Positions 44,576-55,255 of a DNA stretch of 64,000 bases are shown piece by piece. Under the pieces are notes generated by a model, which saw only the letters and a program-made list of their open reading frames with translations, was not told the origin of the DNA and searched no databases. How positions within the stretch are numbered: position 1 is the stretch's first letter; every line of letters begins with the position of its first letter. A program made the position numbers and the translations under genes. The stretch comes from Rhodothermales bacterium (lineage in GTDB: Bacteria; Bacteroidota; Rhodothermia; Rhodothermales; UBA10348), in NCBI GenBank assembly GCA_040221055.1, contig JAVJVN010000020.1, positions 133,528 through 197,527 on the forward strand, read 5' to 3'.

Positions 44576-47008
44576 ATGTTCCGCAATTATCTCGTGACCG
44601 CGCTCCGCGCGTTCCGCCGTCGTCCCGTCTATGCCATCGTGAATGTGGTCGGCTTGGCGCTCGGCATGGCCGCGTGCGTCCTCATCCTGACGCTCGTCCA
44701 CTTCGAATGGAGCTTTGACCGCTATCACGAGAACGCGAATCGGATCCACAAGACCAACTTCCGCTACCTGACGCCCGACGGAACGCCGGAATACCAGCTC
44801 ATGATGACGCCCGAATTCACACCGGCGTTCAAGGATGCGTTTCCGGCCATAGAACGGGCCACACGCCTCGTGCAGAATTCCATGGACATCCGGACCGGCG
44901 ATGAGGTGTACCGCCGGATGATGGCCGAAGTGGACCATGACTTCTTCCGGATGTTCACCGTGCCGCTCCTGGCCGGGGATGTTGAACGGGTCCTGCTGTC
45001 CCCCGACGACATGGTCATCTCCCGCTCCACGGCCGAGGCTTGGTACGGCTCGGCCGAAGCGGCCGTCGGTCAGTCGACCAATATTTCCCGGGGTGATCTG
45101 AACAAGGACTTTACGGTCGTCGGGGTCTTCGAGGACTTCCCGGCCTGGTCCTCCATCACCTTCGATGTAGCCGTGTCGTTCGAGAATTACGGGGACATCC
45201 GGCTCGGTGGCAACAACTGGGGCGGCCGGACCTCCACGTACATCCTCCTGGCAGAGGGCACCGACGCCGAGGCGTTCGAAGCCGGACTCGGGCCGCACGT
45301 CGATACCGCATTCGCGGAATACGTCGAGGCCATGCGCGGCGCATCCCGGATGGCCACGCACGATGGCGCGTACACCCTTGAACTGCAACCGCTGGCCGAC
45401 GTGCACCGGTCCCCCGAAGTGGGTGTGAGATATGAGCGCGCCGTCCACAATCCACTGTATTCCTGGATTCTCGGGGGTATCGGCCTGCTCATCCTGCTCA
45501 TTGCATGCATCAACTTCATGACGCTGTCCGTCGGGCAATCCGCCACGCGGGCCCATGAGGTCGGCATCCGGAAGGCGCTGGGCGCCGATCGCGGGCAGCT
45601 CATGAAACAGTATCTGGGTGAATCGATGGTGCTGGCAGGCGGTGCCCTGCTGACCGGCCTGGCCCTCGCGGTAGTGCTCCAGCCGTGGTTCAACACGCTG
45701 ACGGGCAAGGAACTGTCCATCCTGGGTCTGTCGCCCGTCCTGCTGGTGGTCGGAATCCTGGCCTTGCTCGCCACCGTCGGTCTGATTGCGGGCGGATACC
45801 CCGCCGTGGTCCTGTCACGGTTCCAGCCCGCCCGCGTCCTGAAGGGCGAAACCCCGAAGTCCGGTCGCGGCCTTCTGACACGGAGTCTGGTCGTTCTGCA
45901 ATACACGATCTCTATCGGCCTCCTCTCAAGCCTGTTCATCATGAGCCAGCAGATTGACCATCTCCTGAATGCCGACATGGGGTACGATGCCGAGCGTGTG
46001 GTGGCCATCGAAGCCCGCGGATTGGACCCGAATCGTGCCGAGGACTACGTGGAAGCGTATCGCCAGGCGGTCATGCCCTCCGGATACGTCGAGAATGTGG
46101 CCCGGGCCGGACAGGCTTTCACCCGGAGCAGTGACCGGAACGGCTGGGCCGATGCGCAGGGCATCCAGCGCCAAGCCTACAATTTCGGCGTGGATTACGA
46201 CTACGTGGACGTGATGGGCATGGAAATCGTGGCCGGGCGCAATTATTCGAAGGACTACCCGGCCGATCCCACGAATTCCATCCTCGTGAACGAGGCCCTC
46301 GTACGGGAATTCGGGATCGAGGAGCCGGTGGGACATATCATGCACGGGTGGCTCTCGTTCATCTATGAGACCCCGCCGACCATCATTGGCGTCGTGGAGG
46401 ACTTCAACTACCAATCGCTGCACACGGCTGTGCAGCCTGCCGTCCTGAACATGCACCCGGGCTACTACAATCGGTTGGGCGCCATCCTGGTCCGGCTGAA
46501 ACCTGGCAATACCGAGCAGGCGCTGGCTGCGCTGGAGGAGGCGTGGTCCGTCGTGGCGCCCGGTGCGCCCTATGCGTGGGCCTTCGTGTCTGACGACATG
46601 GCCCGGCAGTATGCCACCGAGCAGCAGTGGCAGGATATCGTGACGTGGTCGTCCATCCTGGCCCTCATCATTGCCTGCATGGGCGTCTTCGGGTTGGCCT
46701 TGCTGACCGTTACGCGCCGCATAAAGGAGATCGGCATCCGGAAGGTCCTTGGCGCGAGCGCCGGCAGCATTGTCCGCCTGGTTTCCGGTGAGTTCGCAGT
46801 CCTCGTGGTGATCTCGTCCATACTGGCCGTCCCGCTGGCCTGGTTCGCCATGGACCGCTGGCTGGAAAACTTTGCTTACCGCATGGATATGGGCGCCGGC
46901 GTCTTCGTGTTGGCTACTGCCGCCGCGCTGTTCGTGGCCATGATGACCGTGGCCTGGCACGCGTGGAACGCCGCTCGGGTGGATCCGGCGCGGACGCTGA
47001 GGCAGTAG
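44576..47008 (+). CDS. MacB/FtsX-type ABC transporter permease
   Basis: 810 residues built as two permease units. An N-terminal helix (VYAIVNVVGLALGMAACVLILTLV) is followed by a periplasmic MacB-like core (about 45-270). Three helices of the FtsX domain follow (WILGGIGLLILLIACINFMTL, GALLTGLALAVVLQ), then a second helix-core-FtsX unit ending WHAWNAARVDPARTL. The tell-tale cytoplasmic loop SATRAHEVGIRKALGADRGQL occurs, and again as TRRIKEIGIRKVLGAS. No ATPase gene is adjacent, so this is an orphan permease of the type expanded in Bacteroidota. Confidence 0.92.
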   Translation: MFRNYLVTALRAFRRRPVYAIVNVVGLALGMAACVLILTLVHFEWSFDRYHENANRIHKTNFRYLTPDGTPEYQLMMTPEFTPAFKDAFPAIERATRLVQNSMDIRTGDEVYRRMMAEVDHDFFRMFTVPLLAGDVERVLLSPDDMVISRSTAEAWYGSAEAAVGQSTNISRGDLNKDFTVVGVFEDFPAWSSITFDVAVSFENYGDIRLGGNNWGGRTSTYILLAEGTDAEAFEAGLGPHVDTAFAEYVEAMRGASRMATHDGAYTLELQPLADVHRSPEVGVRYERAVHNPLYSWILGGIGLLILLIACINFMTLSVGQSATRAHEVGIRKALGADRGQLMKQYLGESMVLAGGALLTGLALAVVLQPWFNTLTGKELSILGLSPVLLVVGILALLATVGLIAGGYPAVVLSRFQPARVLKGETPKSGRGLLTRSLVVLQYTISIGLLSSLFIMSQQIDHLLNADMGYDAERVVAIEARGLDPNRAEDYVEAYRQAVMPSGYVENVARAGQAFTRSSDRNGWADAQGIQRQAYNFGVDYDYVDVMGMEIVAGRNYSKDYPADPTNSILVNEALVREFGIEEPVGHIMHGWLSFIYETPPTIIGVVEDFNYQSLHTAVQPAVLNMHPGYYNRLGAILVRLKPGNTEQALAALEEAWSVVAPGAPYAWAFVSDDMARQYATEQQWQDIVTWSSILALIIACMGVFGLALLTVTRRIKEIGIRKVLGASAGSIVRLVSGEFAVLVVISSILAVPLAWFAMDRWLENFAYRMDMGAGVFVLATAAALFVAMMTVAWHAWNAARVDPARTLRQ

Positions 47009-47045: not shown

Positions 47046-48071
47046 ATGGCTTCCCATGAGCACATACGCAGCCTGGTTGAGGGCCTGACCGCGCCCCAAC
47101 CGACCCGCGCTGCCATCCAGGCCGGCGTGGATCATGCCTACCGGCTGGCCCGGGCGTACCTGAGAACGGCGCGCAGCCACTCGGTCATTGCGCACGTCCT
47201 GGTGTGCCGCCCTGACCGGGACCTGCCGCTGGACCTGATTGCCGATCTGTTCGAAACCAACGAACTGGGACAGTTCGTGCGGATCCGCGATTACTTCTCC
47301 GACCCTGCCCATTGGGAGTCCCAGGCAGCGGTGGACCGGGCCTGGAAGCGCCTGGTTTTGGGCACCGTTTCCGACGGACTGTTCGCACGGTACAAGGACG
47401 CGGACGGATCGCTGTCCAGGATTGTCCGCAACCTGAAACGGATTGCCCGGACCCTCGAGGAAGACCTGGAACTCGTCCGGTACGGTGGTCGACTCCGAAT
47501 CCAGATCAAGGACGCGCCACCCGAGCGGTTGCATCTCCCGGTCCTGCTGCCCGAATACATGGACCCGTACCTCCGGCGTGCCATGAAGGACGGGGTCGAT
47601 TTGAGCCGGGTCCTGATGGAGGTGAAGAGCGTGCTCACGGCCCAGACCGACCACGCGCCCCATTTCGAATTGACCACGCTGGCGCTCCTGCTGCGCTCCA
47701 CGACCGTCCGGCTGCATGGCGAAGCCCCCTCCTCCACGCGCGAGACGAGTCCCGACCTGCCGGCCACCCTCCGACGTGCCGTTGCTCGGGTCCGGAAATC
47801 CAGGTACGCCTTCTACGTGGAGCGGGAACGGCTCACGGGACAGGAGTACGACCTGATGTGTCAAGCCGTCGAAATCCGGATGGTGTCCCACGCCGAGATC
47901 GGTTTCGGTCACGTTACGTCCAACATGCTCGCACTCCAGGAACTCATCCCGGACCTGTCGGAAGAACACTATCGTCAACACTATCGCAGCATCTTCGAGT
48001 ACCTTTTCCAGTTGGTCCGGGACGAATTGGAGAAATCCCTCCTGAAATCGGCAACCCCCACGCGTCGGTAG
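47046..48071 (+). CDS. Uncharacterised protein, first gene of the Lon-like protease locus
   Basis: The ATG at 47046 is preferred over a TTG nine bases upstream; 341 residues. No signal peptide or membrane helix; the protein is Arg/Leu-rich and helical. Readable blocks are HVLVCRPDRDLPLDLIADLFETNELGQF, VLGTVSDGLFARYKDADGSLSRIVRNLKRIAR and MVSHAEIGFGHVTSNMLALQELIPDLSEEHYRQ. The basic IVRNLKRIAR stretch could contact nucleic acid. I do not recognise a family. The next gene starts 36 bp after it, and a third follows with overlap, so the three look like one operon. Confidence 0.75.
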   Translation: MASHEHIRSLVEGLTAPQPTRAAIQAGVDHAYRLARAYLRTARSHSVIAHVLVCRPDRDLPLDLIADLFETNELGQFVRIRDYFSDPAHWESQAAVDRAWKRLVLGTVSDGLFARYKDADGSLSRIVRNLKRIARTLEEDLELVRYGGRLRIQIKDAPPERLHLPVLLPEYMDPYLRRAMKDGVDLSRVLMEVKSVLTAQTDHAPHFELTTLALLLRSTTVRLHGEAPSSTRETSPDLPATLRRAVARVRKSRYAFYVERERLTGQEYDLMCQAVEIRMVSHAEIGFGHVTSNMLALQELIPDLSEEHYRQHYRSIFEYLFQLVRDELEKSLLKSATPTRR

Positions 48072-48107
48072 GATATACATATAAAGTCAGCCTTTTATTT
48101 CACGCCC

Positions 48108-48926
48108 GTGATCGACGTCATCGAAGCCTTGGTATGGACCCCCTCTGCGCTCCCCGAGCCAGAGCTGCGGCACGCCGAGCAGTTGGTGGCGACGGATCCC
48201 GTGGCGCGCGACCTGTGGGAGTTCCTGTCGGCCCTCCGGGCGGAAATGCTGGACCACGCATCGGAATGGAATCCGGAGGACATGCCGACCCATGTCCGGA
48301 CGTTCGCGGAATCGCTCTACACGCCACCGCGCCGGATTCCGCTCCGGATGAAGCGCGAAGTGGACCGGGACGTGAAAACCCGAACCGCCCTGCGGACCAA
48401 CATGGCCGCCGCGACCGCCTCCCGCAGCACCCGATTCCGTTCGCTGGGGTCCATGCTCAATCGGGAAGAGGGCATCCTGGTCCGTTTCCTGCTCGACGAC
48501 GAAGCCGACCTGGTCCGGGGCTACGCCCTTTCGACGTCCGGTGTCGACGTGACCACCTCGGTCGTGGTGCTCGAGGGCCATGCACAACCCATTTGTCCGG
48601 ACGCCAACGGGGCTTTTTCCTTTCCGGCGTCGTGGGTCCGACCGCCTTCGTCCTTGGCCGACCAGAATGTGGACCTGTTGCTGCCCGTGGCCGCCCTCGC
48701 CTTTGAAGGTCGTCCAGAGGATTTCACCATCCATCATCCGGATTCCGGAGAGGTCATGGCCACGTTTTCCGTGCGCGGGAAGGACCTGATACCCGCCATT
48801 TCCACAGACGGGCCCTATCACCTGACGGCCACATGCTCGGGAGGCGACGCCACGGTCCTTGTGGACAATGAGCCGGTTCCATGCGATCCCGGCGTTCCGT
48901 GCGTCATCAGGGCGTATGCCCGGTGA
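48108..48926 (+). CDS. Uncharacterised protein, second gene of the Lon-like protease locus
   Basis: The start is GTG at 48108 (VIDVIEAL...), 272 residues. An N-terminal helical segment (PELRHAEQLVATDPVARDLWEFLSALRAEM) resembles the N-terminus of anti-sigma factors, but without the zinc-binding Cys/His set. A basic linker (about 75-110) leads to a beta-rich C-terminal half (GYALSTSGVDVTTSVVVLEGH, SVRGKDLIPAISTDGPYHL). No membrane helix. Its TGA lies 11 bases inside the next gene (start 48916), so production of the two is probably coupled. A function cannot be given. Confidence 0.72.
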   Translation: MIDVIEALVWTPSALPEPELRHAEQLVATDPVARDLWEFLSALRAEMLDHASEWNPEDMPTHVRTFAESLYTPPRRIPLRMKREVDRDVKTRTALRTNMAAATASRSTRFRSLGSMLNREEGILVRFLLDDEADLVRGYALSTSGVDVTTSVVVLEGHAQPICPDANGAFSFPASWVRPPSSLADQNVDLLLPVAALAFEGRPEDFTIHHPDSGEVMATFSVRGKDLIPAISTDGPYHLTATCSGGDATVLVDNEPVPCDPGVPCVIRAYAR

Positions 48927-51225
48927 CCGGCATCATCTCTCCGCGCTGGATGTAGAGGATGCGCTGGACGGGTTGCGGGTGCGACACAGCCACACGGAGC
49001 ATCTGACGCACCGGCTCGTGGGCGTACTCCTGTTTCTTACGGATGACCTCGGACGACTGGACCCGTTCCAGGCCGCCGCATCGTTCGCGGATGACGTGCT
49101 CGACCTCCTCCCCACCCACGGAGACATCCCGGATCTCGACGGAGTCGATCCGATGATCCTGGAGGAAGGTGGCAACGTCGTTGCCCGCCTCGCCGCGCTG
49201 GAAGGGTGCGCCCGTATCCTGCCGGATTTGCGGCGTTCGTCCGATGCGCTCCTGGCCATGGCCACGTTCCAATATGTTCGCCTGGGCAGCCAGGTGCATG
49301 CCCACCGCCTGCTCCAACACCGGTCGCCTGGCGCCGACACACCATCCCGCGGTGGGCTGGAGAAATCCGTCCTGCAGGACATCCGTACGCACCGACCGGC
49401 TTGGGAATCCATGTATACGGCGTGCATGAACAATGCAGACCGCAGGCGGCGCGAACGCCGGAATTCCGCCATCTTCCCGGTCGTTCCGACCGTCCACCAT
49501 GCATCGACCCGGCGGGTGTTGACGGCCGGATACACCCGTACCCTGACGTGCACCATAGCCGGGCGGTCGACCAACGGGGACTCCTTCGATACCATCTTCA
49601 ACCTCGACGGCGATCCGGGGGCCGCGACCCGCACCCCCCTCAGCGCGGGCAGGACCTTGCTGCGTGATCATGAACCCGCACTGCTGCGGCGAACCTTCCA
49701 GGGTACGTTCTCGCTGGACGGAGGCGGCGCGGTCCACTCCGGCGAATCGGCCGGCCTGGCCATGGCCCTGCTTTATTTCTGCGCGGTCGTCCAATTCTCC
49801 GGGCGTCGCCGGGAATGGTCCGTCCGCCCGGATTGTGTACTTACCGGGGCCGTGGACGACGATGGGTACGTCCTTCCCGTTGATCCCGGCAGCATCCGGG
49901 CGAAAACAGCGGCTGCCTTCTTTTCGGGTGCCAACCTGTTCGTTCTGCCACGCGTCCACCTGGACGAAGCCGAAACCGCACTGGCCATTCTCCGGCAACG
50001 GTATCCTGAGCGGCAGTTGGAAGTCCGGGGGATCCAGTCCGTCCACGAGGCGGCGGCGGACCGCCGGATTGTACACTCGGAAAAACGCGGGCTGGTGAAC
50101 CATGTGCTCCGGCAGTTCTGGATGCGGAAGTGGCTGGTTGCCGCTGTCTTCGCCGGCGTGATCCTCGGCATCTCCGCCATGATCTGGCGCGAGACCTGGA
50201 TTGATCCCTATCCCCATACCTGGTCCTGGGACGAGACGTCCTATGTGGTGCTCAATTCGGACGGGCAGGAGCTGTTCCGACTCTCCGCGAGCCGGGAAAC
50301 CATAATTGCCCTCCAAACAGGATCCCAGGGGTTTCGTCCGGCCGTTCTGTCGGACCTCAACGGAGACGGCTTCAAAGACCTTGTCGCCCTGGACAGTCGC
50401 CAACTGCTGGACGGTGACACCGGTCTCCTCCATATCGCCGACGGACGGACGCATCGGGTGCGCACCCTCGACATCTTTGACATGGAGTTGCCGTACGACC
50501 GGGATCTGTCCGTTGTCCACGGCCGGATGTCGCCCTGGATGGTGATTGCCGGTGATTACGACCAGAACGGTACGTCGGAAATCTATGTGGCGGCCATCCA
50601 CGATTTCTACCCGACCGTGGTCATGAAACTGGATGCGATGAGCGGAGCCATACTGGATGTCTATCATCACTCGGGCGTCTTCAGGGCGATGATGGCGTTG
50701 GATCTGGATGACGACGGTCGGGCTGAGATTGTCCTTGGGGGGACCAACAATGCATTCGACCAGGCCGTGATCGTCGTCCTGGATCCGGAACGATTCGGTG
50801 GATTCGGCCCCAGCCAAGGGGTGTATCAACCTGGCCCCGGTCCGACCGGGCATGAGCGGTTGTATCTGCGGTTGCCCCGCACCGGAGTCGGGCGTCTTGC
50901 ACCGCCTCCGTTCCCCGTTGTCAACGAAATCCGGCCGATGCTGCAGGACCGCCTCATCCAGTTCACCACCTGGGAAGCCATGCTGCGTCGCGTGGATAAC
51001 ACGCTCCTGAATGCTTCCATATACCTTTACTTGGACTCGGATCTACGCGGCTTCGGCATGGGCACCACCGATTCCTATGATGGAATCTGGGATCGGTTGA
51101 ATACGATGGGCCTCGAACCGCCCCCGCTCGACAGCACGTTCATGGCCACATTCGTGACCGGACTGGAGCGGTGGACATCCCAAGGATGGGTGCCGCACCC
51201 GGTCAGCCCGCGGAGTAAAATGTAA
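48916..51225 (+). CDS. Lon-like Ser/Lys peptidase fused to a membrane helix and FG-GAP repeats
   Basis: The ATG at 48916, inside the end of the previous gene, gives 769 residues. Residues about 1-195 are a helical region of unknown family. Residues about 205-380 match the Lon proteolytic domain: GESAGLAMALLYF holds the candidate nucleophile Ser 278, LTGAVDDDGYVLPVD precedes the Lys strand, and RAKTAAAFFSGANLFVLPR holds Lys 330; LDEAETAL follows as in Lon. There is no AAA+ ATPase part. One membrane helix (KWLVAAVFAGVILGISAMIW, 405-424) precedes a C-terminal part with Ca-loop repeats DLNGDGFKD (480-488), DYDQNGTSE (547-555) and DLDDDGRAE (596-604). Predicted topology: protease in the cytoplasm, repeats outside. 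I know of no described protein with this layout. Confidence 0.82.
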   Translation: MPGDRHHLSALDVEDALDGLRVRHSHTEHLTHRLVGVLLFLTDDLGRLDPFQAAASFADDVLDLLPTHGDIPDLDGVDPMILEEGGNVVARLAALEGCARILPDLRRSSDALLAMATFQYVRLGSQVHAHRLLQHRSPGADTPSRGGLEKSVLQDIRTHRPAWESMYTACMNNADRRRRERRNSAIFPVVPTVHHASTRRVLTAGYTRTLTCTIAGRSTNGDSFDTIFNLDGDPGAATRTPLSAGRTLLRDHEPALLRRTFQGTFSLDGGGAVHSGESAGLAMALLYFCAVVQFSGRRREWSVRPDCVLTGAVDDDGYVLPVDPGSIRAKTAAAFFSGANLFVLPRVHLDEAETALAILRQRYPERQLEVRGIQSVHEAAADRRIVHSEKRGLVNHVLRQFWMRKWLVAAVFAGVILGISAMIWRETWIDPYPHTWSWDETSYVVLNSDGQELFRLSASRETIIALQTGSQGFRPAVLSDLNGDGFKDLVALDSRQLLDGDTGLLHIADGRTHRVRTLDIFDMELPYDRDLSVVHGRMSPWMVIAGDYDQNGTSEIYVAAIHDFYPTVVMKLDAMSGAILDVYHHSGVFRAMMALDLDDDGRAEIVLGGTNNAFDQAVIVVLDPERFGGFGPSQGVYQPGPGPTGHERLYLRLPRTGVGRLAPPPFPVVNEIRPMLQDRLIQFTTWEAMLRRVDNTLLNASIYLYLDSDLRGFGMGTTDSYDGIWDRLNTMGLEPPPLDSTFMATFVTGLERWTSQGWVPHPVSPRSKM

Positions 51226-51326: not shown

Positions 51327-51366
51327 CTGTGGGCGGGGGGCGCGAGCCCCCCGCCCACAGTCGTTT
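51327..51366 (+). terminator. Strong Rho-independent terminator of the Lon-like locus
   Basis: A perfect 15 bp stem (51327-51341 with 51346-51360) closed by a GCGA tetraloop and followed by TCGTTTT. It ends the three-gene unit before the OmpA lipoprotein gene. Confidence 0.85.
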
Positions 51367-52201: not shown

Positions 52202-54814
52202 CTATTCCGTCCGCAGGGTGACCACCGGATCCATCCGGCTCGCACGCCAGGACAGGACGGCCGTCGTACCGATGGCCAGACCGAATACCAGCAGGCCTCC
52301 TGCCATCAGGGTGGTTGGCTGGACGTGGGTCGCATAGGCGAACCCGTCCAGCCAGCGCGCCCCGAGCCACCAGGCAACGGGCAGCGCCAATCCGAGTGCC
52401 AGGAGCACGAGTCCGGCCATGCTGCGGCTCAGGAGCATGACCAAGTTCCACTCCGACGCGCCCACTACCTTGCGGATTCCGATTTCCCGCCGGCGGCGCT
52501 GGGCCGCGAACAACGCCAGGCCAATCAGACCCAGGCAGGCCACAAGCAGGGCCAGCCACGTTCCGTACGTGACCAATGTTGCGGCGCGTCGCTCGGCCAC
52601 GTAGAGCGCATCGAATTGCTCGTCCAGGAAAACCGAACGGAACGGATTTACCGGGTCGAAGCGGACGTACACCTCTGCCAGTGCATCGATCGTACCCTGC
52701 GATGCATTCCCGGTCAGCGCCACGGTCATCTGGGAGTACCAGGCGTCCGGCGCCATGAACAGCATGACCGGTGAAATCCGCTCGTGCAAGGAACGGAAAT
52801 GGAAATCCTTCACGACACCGACGACCTCCAGGGATCGACCGACCGCCGGCATCAATACTGCTTTGCCAATCGGCTCATCCCAATCCATCTGGCGCACGAA
52901 TTCCTCGTTCACAAGGACTGCGGACGCCCGGTCGGTCCCGAACGCCCGGTCGAAAAATCGACCCTCTCTCAATTCAAGGCCGTATACGACCGGGAAGTCC
53001 CAGTCTCCCACCAGCATGCGGATGGAGGGCATTTGCTCAGCGGGAACGCCCGGCACTTCTGCCGGAATGCCCCAATCGCTGCCGCCTGGACGGTTGCCTG
53101 ACATCGTCACGCCCGAAACACCCGGTACATCCAGAATGGCCCGTCGGATGTCTTCCAGCCGGGACTGCATGGATGCATCCTGCAAAGGGATGGCAACCCG
53201 GTTGTCTTGCTCAAAGCCCAGCGGGACCTCCTCCACATACTGCATTTGATCGTCTACGATACCCGCCAACATGAGAAGTGCAGCCGATACCGCAAATTGG
53301 AACACGACCAGGATGTGTCGGAGCCGGTTGGATCCGCCCCTTGACCCGCCCTTTGGACCGTCGCCGCGCATGGCCACACCGGGCGTGAACCGGGATTGGA
53401 CGAGCGCCGGGTACCATCCGGCCACCAACCCGATCCCCAGAATGAACAATGCCAGCCAACCCAGCGCCTGACCTCCCAGGAAGTCCTGCCACATGAAAGC
53501 CTTCCCGGTCAACGCGTTGAACTCGGGGACGACAGCCAACGCCAGTCCGATGGCCAACATGCCGCCGAGAACGGCCAACACCATGGACTCCGTCAGGAAG
53601 CGGGATATCACGCCCCACGAATCGGCCCCGAGGCTCTTGCGCACCCCGACTTCGTGCGATCGCTGGGAGGCCCGCGCCGTGACCAGATTCACGAAATTGA
53701 GTGCCGCCACGACAAGCACGAGCAGGCCCAGGAGCCCCAGCGTCCAGACCCGTTTCGCGTCGCCCGTCGGATACATTTCCCGGAACTGATTGCTCCGCAG
53801 CCAGATGTCCGTCAGCGGCTGAAGCCAGACACCGGCGCCGTCAATAGTCGCTTCCGCCGGGATATTGGCCGCGACGACGTCCGACATGGCCGCACCCGTC
53901 ACCGCCGGATCCGCGCCGGGCGCAAGTTTCACATACGTGTAGTACTGATTCCACCGCCACCAGTCATCGTGCCGCTCGTCCGTGTAGCTGGCCATGGAAA
54001 CCAGCATGGGAAACCTGAAATGCGACGTCCTCGGAACGTCCTCCATGACACCCGTCACCCGGTACAGGTCACCACCGCCGAGCACGACTTCCCGACCCAT
54101 GACATCCGGACCACCGAACAGCTGCTCGGCCAGGCTCCGTGTAAGGACCACGCTGCCGGGGGCCCGCAACGCGGTCCGCTCGTCGCCGGCAAGGAAGGGC
54201 CAGGTGAACACATCGAAAACCGTTGAGTCCGCGAACAGCGTCCCGACGATGGGCAGTCGTTCCCCGTCGACCTCGGCAAACGTGGAGCCGAATGGGGAAA
54301 ACCGTGCGACAGCCTCGACGGCCGGAACCTCCTGGGCACCACGGATGCCCCACGGGCCGTTGATCTTGGCAATGCCATGGAACCCATCGGCGTCGTATTC
54401 GCCATTGACCCGGAATATCCGATGGCTGTCCTCATGGTATTGATCGTACGCCAGTTCATCCTGTACATACAGGGCGAGCAACAGTGCTACCGCCATTCCG
54501 ACGGCAAGGCCCGACAGATTCAAGGCGGAAATGCCCTTCTCGCGTCGGATGGACCGTCCAGAGGTGACAAGATGGTTCAGGATCATGGCTGTTCGCTCCA
54601 TGGGTTGACGGCGCCGCGCCCGCAGCGAATGCGCCCGCATGAATAGAAGGACTTCTTTCCAGTAGATGCACCGCGCCCTGAACACGCCCATACGCTGGAT
54701 ATTCTGGACAAACGATTCGTCAAGATCCCCGCGGATCTCCTCGTACACGTCTCCCCGGCAATACCAGTCCAGGAACCGGATGGCCGAGTCCGGCGGATGC
54801 GTTCTGCGCGTCAT
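52202..54814 (-). CDS. MacB/FtsX-type ABC permease with PadR-linked prefix domain
   Basis: 870 residues. The first ~75 residues form the permease prefix domain found when such genes follow padR (FLDWYCRGDVYEEIRGDLDESFVQN). Then come helix 1 (ISALNLSGLAVGMAVALLLALYV), a MacB-like core and FtsX helices (VWTLGLLGLLVLVVAALNFVNLV); the second unit starts LRHILVVFQFAVSAALLMLAG and ends WRASRMDPVVTLRTE. Cytoplasmic loops HEVGVRKSLGAD and REIGIRKVVGAS are typical. Its ATG overlaps the padR stop (54811-54814), so PadR controls it. No ATPase gene is adjacent. Confidence 0.92.
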   Translation of the reverse strand: MTRRTHPPDSAIRFLDWYCRGDVYEEIRGDLDESFVQNIQRMGVFRARCIYWKEVLLFMRAHSLRARRRQPMERTAMILNHLVTSGRSIRREKGISALNLSGLAVGMAVALLLALYVQDELAYDQYHEDSHRIFRVNGEYDADGFHGIAKINGPWGIRGAQEVPAVEAVARFSPFGSTFAEVDGERLPIVGTLFADSTVFDVFTWPFLAGDERTALRAPGSVVLTRSLAEQLFGGPDVMGREVVLGGGDLYRVTGVMEDVPRTSHFRFPMLVSMASYTDERHDDWWRWNQYYTYVKLAPGADPAVTGAAMSDVVAANIPAEATIDGAGVWLQPLTDIWLRSNQFREMYPTGDAKRVWTLGLLGLLVLVVAALNFVNLVTARASQRSHEVGVRKSLGADSWGVISRFLTESMVLAVLGGMLAIGLALAVVPEFNALTGKAFMWQDFLGGQALGWLALFILGIGLVAGWYPALVQSRFTPGVAMRGDGPKGGSRGGSNRLRHILVVFQFAVSAALLMLAGIVDDQMQYVEEVPLGFEQDNRVAIPLQDASMQSRLEDIRRAILDVPGVSGVTMSGNRPGGSDWGIPAEVPGVPAEQMPSIRMLVGDWDFPVVYGLELREGRFFDRAFGTDRASAVLVNEEFVRQMDWDEPIGKAVLMPAVGRSLEVVGVVKDFHFRSLHERISPVMLFMAPDAWYSQMTVALTGNASQGTIDALAEVYVRFDPVNPFRSVFLDEQFDALYVAERRAATLVTYGTWLALLVACLGLIGLALFAAQRRRREIGIRKVVGASEWNLVMLLSRSMAGLVLLALGLALPVAWWLGARWLDGFAYATHVQPTTLMAGGLLVFGLAIGTTAVLSWRASRMDPVVTLRTE

Positions 54815-55161
54815 GATGACACTCCGGGACGCAATCCGTCCGGCATGCGGGCCAGCAACGAATTCCGCGCCTCCTGCGCTTCCCGCAAGGCCTCCAAGGC
54901 CGCACCGGTCACCCTGAACATGCGCTTTCGGCGCCCGCCCCGCTCCTCGGTGGCCCCTTGCATGCCCGACTCCAGGAATCCCTTGTCTTCCAACCGGTAC
55001 AGCGTGGCGTGGATGGCCCCCAAGGACACACTCCTGCCGACTTCGTCCGCCAGCAGCTGTTGGACCGTCAGACCATAGCCCTGGCCATCCAGGGCCGCAA
55101 CGGCCATGAGCACCAGCTCTTCGAACTCACCCAGTCTCGATCCACGCACAGGTCGCCTCAT
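54811..55161 (-). CDS. PadR-family transcriptional regulator
   Basis: The ATG at 55161 gives MRRPVRGSRLGEFEELVLMAVAAL, the family N-terminus; the frame upstream is only an extension. 116 residues. Winged-helix pattern: YGLTVQQLLADEVGRSVSLGAIHATLYRLEDKGFLES and the wing ERGGRRKRMFRVTGAALEAL. PadR proteins of this small class repress an adjacent transporter and lift on binding a stress ligand. It is the first gene of a coupled pair with the permease. An inverted repeat upstream (55204-55236) is a candidate operator. Confidence 0.92.
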   Translation of the reverse strand: MRRPVRGSRLGEFEELVLMAVAALDGQGYGLTVQQLLADEVGRSVSLGAIHATLYRLEDKGFLESGMQGATEERGGRRKRMFRVTGAALEALREAQEARNSLLARMPDGLRPGVSS

Positions 55162-55203
55162 GAATTCATGGAAACGATCCTGTATATGCAAAATGATAAG
55201 AAA

Positions 55204-55236
55204 GGTTACAGCCCCTTTCTGCTTCTTGGTGTAACC
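55204..55236 (-). promoter_or_regulatory. Inverted repeat GGTTACA/TGTAACC upstream of padR
   Basis: Perfect 7-base arms (55204-55210 and 55230-55236) separated by 19 bases, 43-75 bases upstream of the padR start. Centre-to-centre spacing is 26 bases. A natural candidate for PadR autoregulation; not proven. Confidence 0.45.
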
Positions 55237-55255
55237 CGCCAAAAATAGGGCGTAA

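Follow-up and report, generated by a model that had tools for sequence, protein, structure and literature searches.

A conserved three-gene locus of a Rhodothermales bacterium with a predicted membrane-tethered Lon-like protease, an anti-sigma-like partner and an orphan helical family

How might a sensor outside the cytoplasmic membrane and a protease inside it be joined in one polypeptide, and what would such a protein act upon? The question is raised by three genes, all on the + strand, at positions 47046-51225 of a 64,000-nucleotide stretch of DNA (the window) from a Rhodothermales bacterium (contig JAVJVN010000020.1 of assembly GCA_040221055.1; the host genome is 3.3 Mb in 22 contigs). The third gene encodes a Lon-like proteolytic domain without an AAA+ motor, one membrane helix and an FG-GAP repeat domain predicted to lie outside; the second encodes an anti-sigma-like protein and the first an orphan helical protein. 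The trio is undescribed in the databases and literature that we searched (a literature search for a Lon/anti-sigma/FG-GAP combination found nothing relevant), and it recurs across many related bacteria. We lean, without great assurance, towards a relay running from outside to inside, whose tethered Lon domain would cleave the gene 2 protein and thereby release the gene 1 protein. The features are as follows.

47046-48071, + strand: gene 1, ATG start, 341 amino acids; all-helical, of a family without Pfam, NCBIfam or Protein Data Bank (PDB) relative, in the slot usual for a sigma factor beside its anti-sigma factor
48108-48926, + strand: gene 2, GTG start, 272 amino acids, soluble; anti-sigma (zf-HC2-like) N-terminus without zinc ligands, and a further C-terminal region
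48916-51225, + strand: gene 3, ATG start, 769 amino acids; transmembrane Lon-like protease with a predicted outside FG-GAP domain
48916-49464, + strand: N-terminal helical domain of gene 3, residues 1-183, predicted cytoplasmic (AlphaFold2 model)
49465-50058, + strand: Lon (S16) proteolytic domain, residues 184-381 (model, profile and homologue alignment)
49747-49749 and 49903-49905, + strand: codons of Ser278 and Lys330
50128-50193, + strand: single membrane helix, residues 405-426, with positive charges on its N-terminal side (model and charge count)
50218-51222, + strand: predicted outside domain of FG-GAP (DxDxDG) repeats, beta-propeller-like (Pfam and model)
51328-51363, + strand: perfectly paired, GC-rich hairpin downstream of the operon, resembling a terminator but weak in its T-run

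The coordinates were checked, and the layout originally predicted from the letters of the DNA is right throughout, including the 36 bp gap between genes 1 and 2 and the 11-base overlap of genes 2 and 3.

Is the third protein a Lon-type protease? Its sole Pfam match is to the FG-GAP repeats, which score above the curated cut-off (28.9 versus 26.9 bits), and single-sequence searches matched Lon but with non-significant expectation (E) values. The AlphaFold2 model has a mean predicted local distance difference test (pLDDT) score of 83, rising to about 90 across the Lon domain. Foldseek comparison of this model with the PDB returned Lon proteolytic domains (best E 1.9e-9; template modelling score 0.81 to 6wys), and a profile of 29 Lon domains matched archaeal LonB structures among PDB sequences with an E of 1.2e-10. 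Model and profile together make the Lon fold span residues 184-381 or thereabouts, so the fold that the original prediction had placed at 205-380 is present. Pfam gave no match to an AAA+ module, and residues 1-183 are modelled as a helical domain; fold, profile and this absence all bear out a Lon proteolytic domain without its motor. Neither a PDZ nor a SAVED domain was matched by Pfam, and the sensor domain is the FG-GAP region.

Ser278 (in HSGESAG) and Lys330 (in IRAKTAAA) form a Ser/Lys dyad in the GxSA(G) and K-x2-AA contexts. Each residue of this dyad, the one first proposed, is retained by 47 of the 49 homologues, even at identities as low as about 17-25%; the other two homologues have lost both residues together, and each of them adjoins a copy with an intact dyad. 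Thr310 and Gly311, the counterparts of the Lon TG motif in the alignment, are conserved as strongly, and these four residues are among the most conserved positions of an otherwise divergent domain. Conservation of the dyad across such divergent homologues argues that catalysis is under selection. The single membrane helix, first read as residues 405-424, runs from 405 to 426 in the model. Lysines and arginines summed over 31 homologues number 135 before this helix and 38 after it, and because the positive charges sit N-terminal of the helix across the family, the Lon domain is predicted to lie inside and the FG-GAP domain outside (N-in/C-out), which agrees with the outward-facing Ca-loop repeat region of the original prediction.

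What is the second protein? By itself the window protein was recognised as no family in Pfam or sequence searches, and none was found for gene 1 either, as had been claimed for both; its relatives are more informative. The zinc anti-sigma motif HxxxCxxC is present in 7 of 31 soluble relatives and in all 13 relatives (13/13) that join a gene 2-type domain directly to a membrane helix and the same FG-GAP outside domain as in gene 3; the window protein is without the motif and has lost the zinc ligands. The zf-HC2 family was matched in 4 of 38 relatives; the three matches that were inspected scored below the Pfam threshold. Among PDB sequences the gene 2 profile came closest to chain 3hug_B (E 0.03), the anti-sigma factor RslA. 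Through those relatives that keep the zinc ligands, the claim of an anti-sigma-like N-terminus without them is supported. A short gene 2 of about 170-180 amino acids, also without zinc ligands, is paired with gene 1 at loci L120-L124, L146, L148 and L157 (L numbers are our locus labels).

The gene 1 protein is modelled by AlphaFold2 as helical with a pLDDT of 89. No significant relative was found in Pfam, NCBIfam, PDB sequences, PDB folds or viral folds (the folds with Foldseek), and a plasmid search found none. At L048:6461-9397 and L049:5437-8361 a gene 1 homologue is followed by a protein of 71-75 amino acids and then by a membrane-anchored subtilase, which suggests that another protease is paired with gene 1 there. 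At L051:6510-9165 and L052:6854-9775 the homologue is divergent from a propeller-like membrane protein with one helix and a possible cytoplasmic winged-helix end. Separately, the host genome encodes a divergent sigma-like protein of about 280 amino acids in which a long insertion separates regions 2 and 4 (L143, contig C11).

Do the three genes belong together? We surveyed 394 genomes of the phylum, counting Lon-type gene 3 at E < 1e-20. The gene 1 family occurs in 50 of the 394 (about one in eight) and Lon-type gene 3 in 37, of which 36 also have gene 1; 4.7 such genomes would be expected (hypergeometric 2e-38, ignoring phylogeny). About two dozen loci have the order gene 1-gene 2-gene 3, about a dozen have gene 1 with the fused two-gene form, and L148 and L157 have gene 3-gene 1-gene 2; gene 1 is present in all module types. 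When reading frames of all fetched loci were clustered, only the module's own families recurred there, the exceptions being one cluster of secreted proteins and one shadow reading frame. Compared pairwise, the three proteins have correlated distance matrices (r 0.76, 0.80 and 0.66, values reached by no permutation), and on a contig with two modules the three proteins of each share one outside nearest neighbour (L088 and L093, respectively). Thus the trio moves or descends as a unit, and by conserved order and co-occurrence the genes are kept together in related genomes. Named genomes searched with the window protein alone yielded nothing; an alignment of relatives found module relatives in Balneola, Gracilimonas, Rhodohalobacter, Ignavibacteriales and Chlorobi records. 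Gene 3 is multiplied to three and four copies in single loci (L087 and L145).

The outside domain is also found in other company. At L040:2756-5646 a Sigma70_ECF gene (E 1e-52; ECF, extracytoplasmic function) is followed by a Ser/Thr kinase with a membrane helix and FG-GAP repeats; this kinase has the same type of juxtamembrane segment and outside domain, with the kinase in place of the Lon domain. The same outside type is therefore carried by a kinase next to an ECF sigma gene, by an anti-sigma domain next to gene 1 and by the Lon protein next to genes 1 and 2, a pattern that argues for the outside domain as a putative sensor feeding sigma-type outputs. At L041:145-4199 and L042:11654-15756 there are tandem Lon-like membrane proteins, one without both catalytic residues and one intact; their outside part differs, and the intact copy of L041 carries a DUF5122 (delta-60) propeller.

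Around the module, large FtsX/MacB-like permease genes, identified by eye, lie on both sides (window 44576-47008 and 52202-55242), the second adjoined by a PadR-like regulator gene. The terminator predicted after the set is a perfect hairpin about 100 bp beyond the gene 3 stop codon (-43 kcal/mol, z -6.2), which occurs once in the genome; its stem is 16 bp rather than the 15 bp first given, and its T-run is just four bases, for which reason a simple terminator scan missed it.

How, then, might the module work? In the relay that we favour, the FG-GAP propeller of gene 3 would sense a ligand or the state of the envelope outside the cytoplasmic membrane, and the single helix would pass the signal inwards, probably as it oligomerises or reorients. 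The cytoplasmic, ATP-independent Lon-like Ser/Lys protease domain would become active and cut the gene 2 protein, which would otherwise keep the gene 1 protein inactive; the released gene 1 protein would then change transcription. In the fused relatives a simpler, protease-free form may operate, an anti-sigma domain on a membrane helix and propeller keeping gene 1 membrane-bound. Gating by the outside domain, cleavage of gene 2 and release of gene 1 are proposed by analogy with the CalpL/CalpT/CalpS system described below, and a transcriptional role of gene 1 is inferred. The original prediction of transmembrane regulated proteolysis with sigma/anti-sigma logic is supported in part: the fold, the dyad, the N-in helix, the conserved unit and the anti-sigma-like gene 2 bear it out, and it stands as the best available reading, with outside control and the partners as substrates its putative elements. 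Profile and fold tests of gene 1 as a sigma factor were negative.

Several observations weigh against this relay. Pfam found no sigma match in 59 members of the gene 1 family. HHalign comparison with 20 sigma factors encoded by the host genome, controlled by reversed and shuffled profiles, gave about 1% probability, no better than the reversed profile. Among Foldseek matches to the PDB and viral models, sigma factors were few and at chance-level E values. Sigma70 regions 2 and 4 were thus detected by neither profile nor fold, and gene 1 could represent either a sigma factor that has diverged to an extreme degree or a novel kind of protein. The relay has no known substrate or ligand, and the membrane Lon-like protein YlbL, when isolated, displayed no activity in vitro (PMC6051672). 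In addition, gene 3 occurs as an orphan: the host genome has a copy at L035:5467-7812 (contig C14; 46% identity, dyad intact) without genes 1 and 2, and several other genomes have copies away from gene 1 (L153-L155, L158 and L159). Finally, the module is patchy, being absent from two of three genomes of the same genus. The L035 copy adjoins ilvD- and ilvB-like genes.

Four other explanations were weighed against the relay. The tethered Lon domain might degrade or trim gene 1, or some different client, while gene 2 acts as an adaptor or a protector; the outside signal would then lower the regulator instead of releasing it. Lon-type enzymes often use adaptors to degrade regulators, and the co-inheritance of the three genes, with gene 1 in every module type, would fit; however, gene 1 and anti-sigma-like gene 2 are also paired in forms without a Lon domain, which suggests that the task of gene 2 is to hold gene 1 and not to serve the protease, and we judge this course improbable. 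Alternatively, Lon might cut mainly its own chain or a paralogue and shed a fragment that genes 2 and 1 would sense. Tandem copies, among them pairs in which one partner has the dyad and the other lacks it, could be read in this way, as could the want of a known substrate, but copies without a tandem partner are the rule, and self-cleavage seems to us decidedly unlikely.

The Lon-like fold could also have no catalytic activity and serve as a scaffold, binding gene 2 and signalling by conformational change only. That the membrane-fused relatives would signal without any protease domain, and that two copies have lost the dyad, speaks for it; the strong conservation of Ser278, Thr310, Gly311 and Lys330 speaks against it, and we give a dead scaffold little credence. 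An anti-phage or conflict system, in place of envelope signalling, is suggested by the CRISPR Calp system, whose logic is closest, and by the patchy distribution. Such a role appears very improbable, as the sensor is predicted to point outwards and lacks a nucleotide-binding domain, no gene families beyond those of the module recur in its neighbourhoods, and a PADLOC search of all three proteins, with zero matches, speaks against a defence system. Returning to the relay, its most ambitious form is a class of one-piece receptor proteases, in which an outside propeller would gate an ATP-free cytoplasmic Lon domain across one helix and free a non-sigma70 regulator class (gene 1) from a zinc-less anti-sigma-like holder, spread across the phylum; we put this forward tentatively and consider it doubtful.

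Regulated anti-sigma proteolysis usually needs at least two separate proteases or a second messenger. Here a single chain combines the predicted sensor, the membrane crossing and the cytoplasmic protease, and its gene lies with those of a probable substrate and output protein. Three output domains (Lon, kinase and anti-sigma) are linked to the same kind of outside sensor, and gene 1 comes to light as a putative regulator family that Pfam and NCBIfam miss. The trio gives the idea of Lon/anti-sigma signalling a new form, includes an orphan family of putative regulators and is widespread in the phylum.

Which known systems does the module resemble? The closest experimentally known logic, by analogy, is that of CalpL/CalpT/CalpS, the type III CRISPR Lon protease, anti-sigma factor and ECF sigma factor, in which the CalpL Lon domain, switched on by oligomerisation, cuts CalpT and frees CalpS (PMC11417357, PMC12751052, PMC11229360). 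Both systems have three proteins, with a Lon domain lacking a working ATPase beside a sensor, and in both the protease is encoded with an anti-sigma or, here by sequence, anti-sigma-like protein as its likely substrate and a regulator to release. They differ in that the CalpL sensor is a SAVED domain for cyclic tetra-adenylate (cA4), whereas that of gene 3 is a predicted outside FG-GAP propeller across a membrane helix, and in that CalpS is an ECF sigma factor while gene 1 has no recognisable sigma similarity. CalpL matches the gene 3 Lon profile with an E of 0.43, indicating no special sequence relationship, and no CRISPR link was seen here.

YlbL of Bacillus subtilis (Lon-PDZ) demonstrates that a Lon domain can work membrane-tethered without AAA+ (PMC6051672), and like gene 3 it has the Ser/Lys dyad, a membrane tether and no AAA+ domain; YlbL contains a PDZ domain and probably works extracellularly, whereas charge places the gene 3 Lon domain inside and its sensor outside, and gene 3 has conserved partner genes. 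ATP-independent proteolysis by a Lon-type enzyme is known from LonC (PMC3391209), which, with other ATP-independent Lon-like proteases, resembles gene 3 in having a Lon proteolytic domain that would act without ATP-driven unfolding; unlike LonC, gene 3 has no AAA-like domain and has a membrane helix, and it lacks the AAA+ module of the ATP-dependent LonA and LonB. The gene 2 N-terminus and the gene order recall the ZAS (zf-HC2) membrane anti-sigma factors and their ECF partners, as do the fused relatives, which are proteins of zf-HC2 domain, membrane helix and outside domain, although gene 1 is not detectably sigma70 and the window gene 2 protein is soluble and has lost its zinc ligands. The operons of an ECF sigma factor and a Hanks-type kinase, finally, are linked to gene 3 through the L040 kinase, which shares its outside-domain type and membrane segment; there a kinase stands where gene 3 has Lon, a canonical sigma gene stands where the module has gene 1, and gene 2 is absent.
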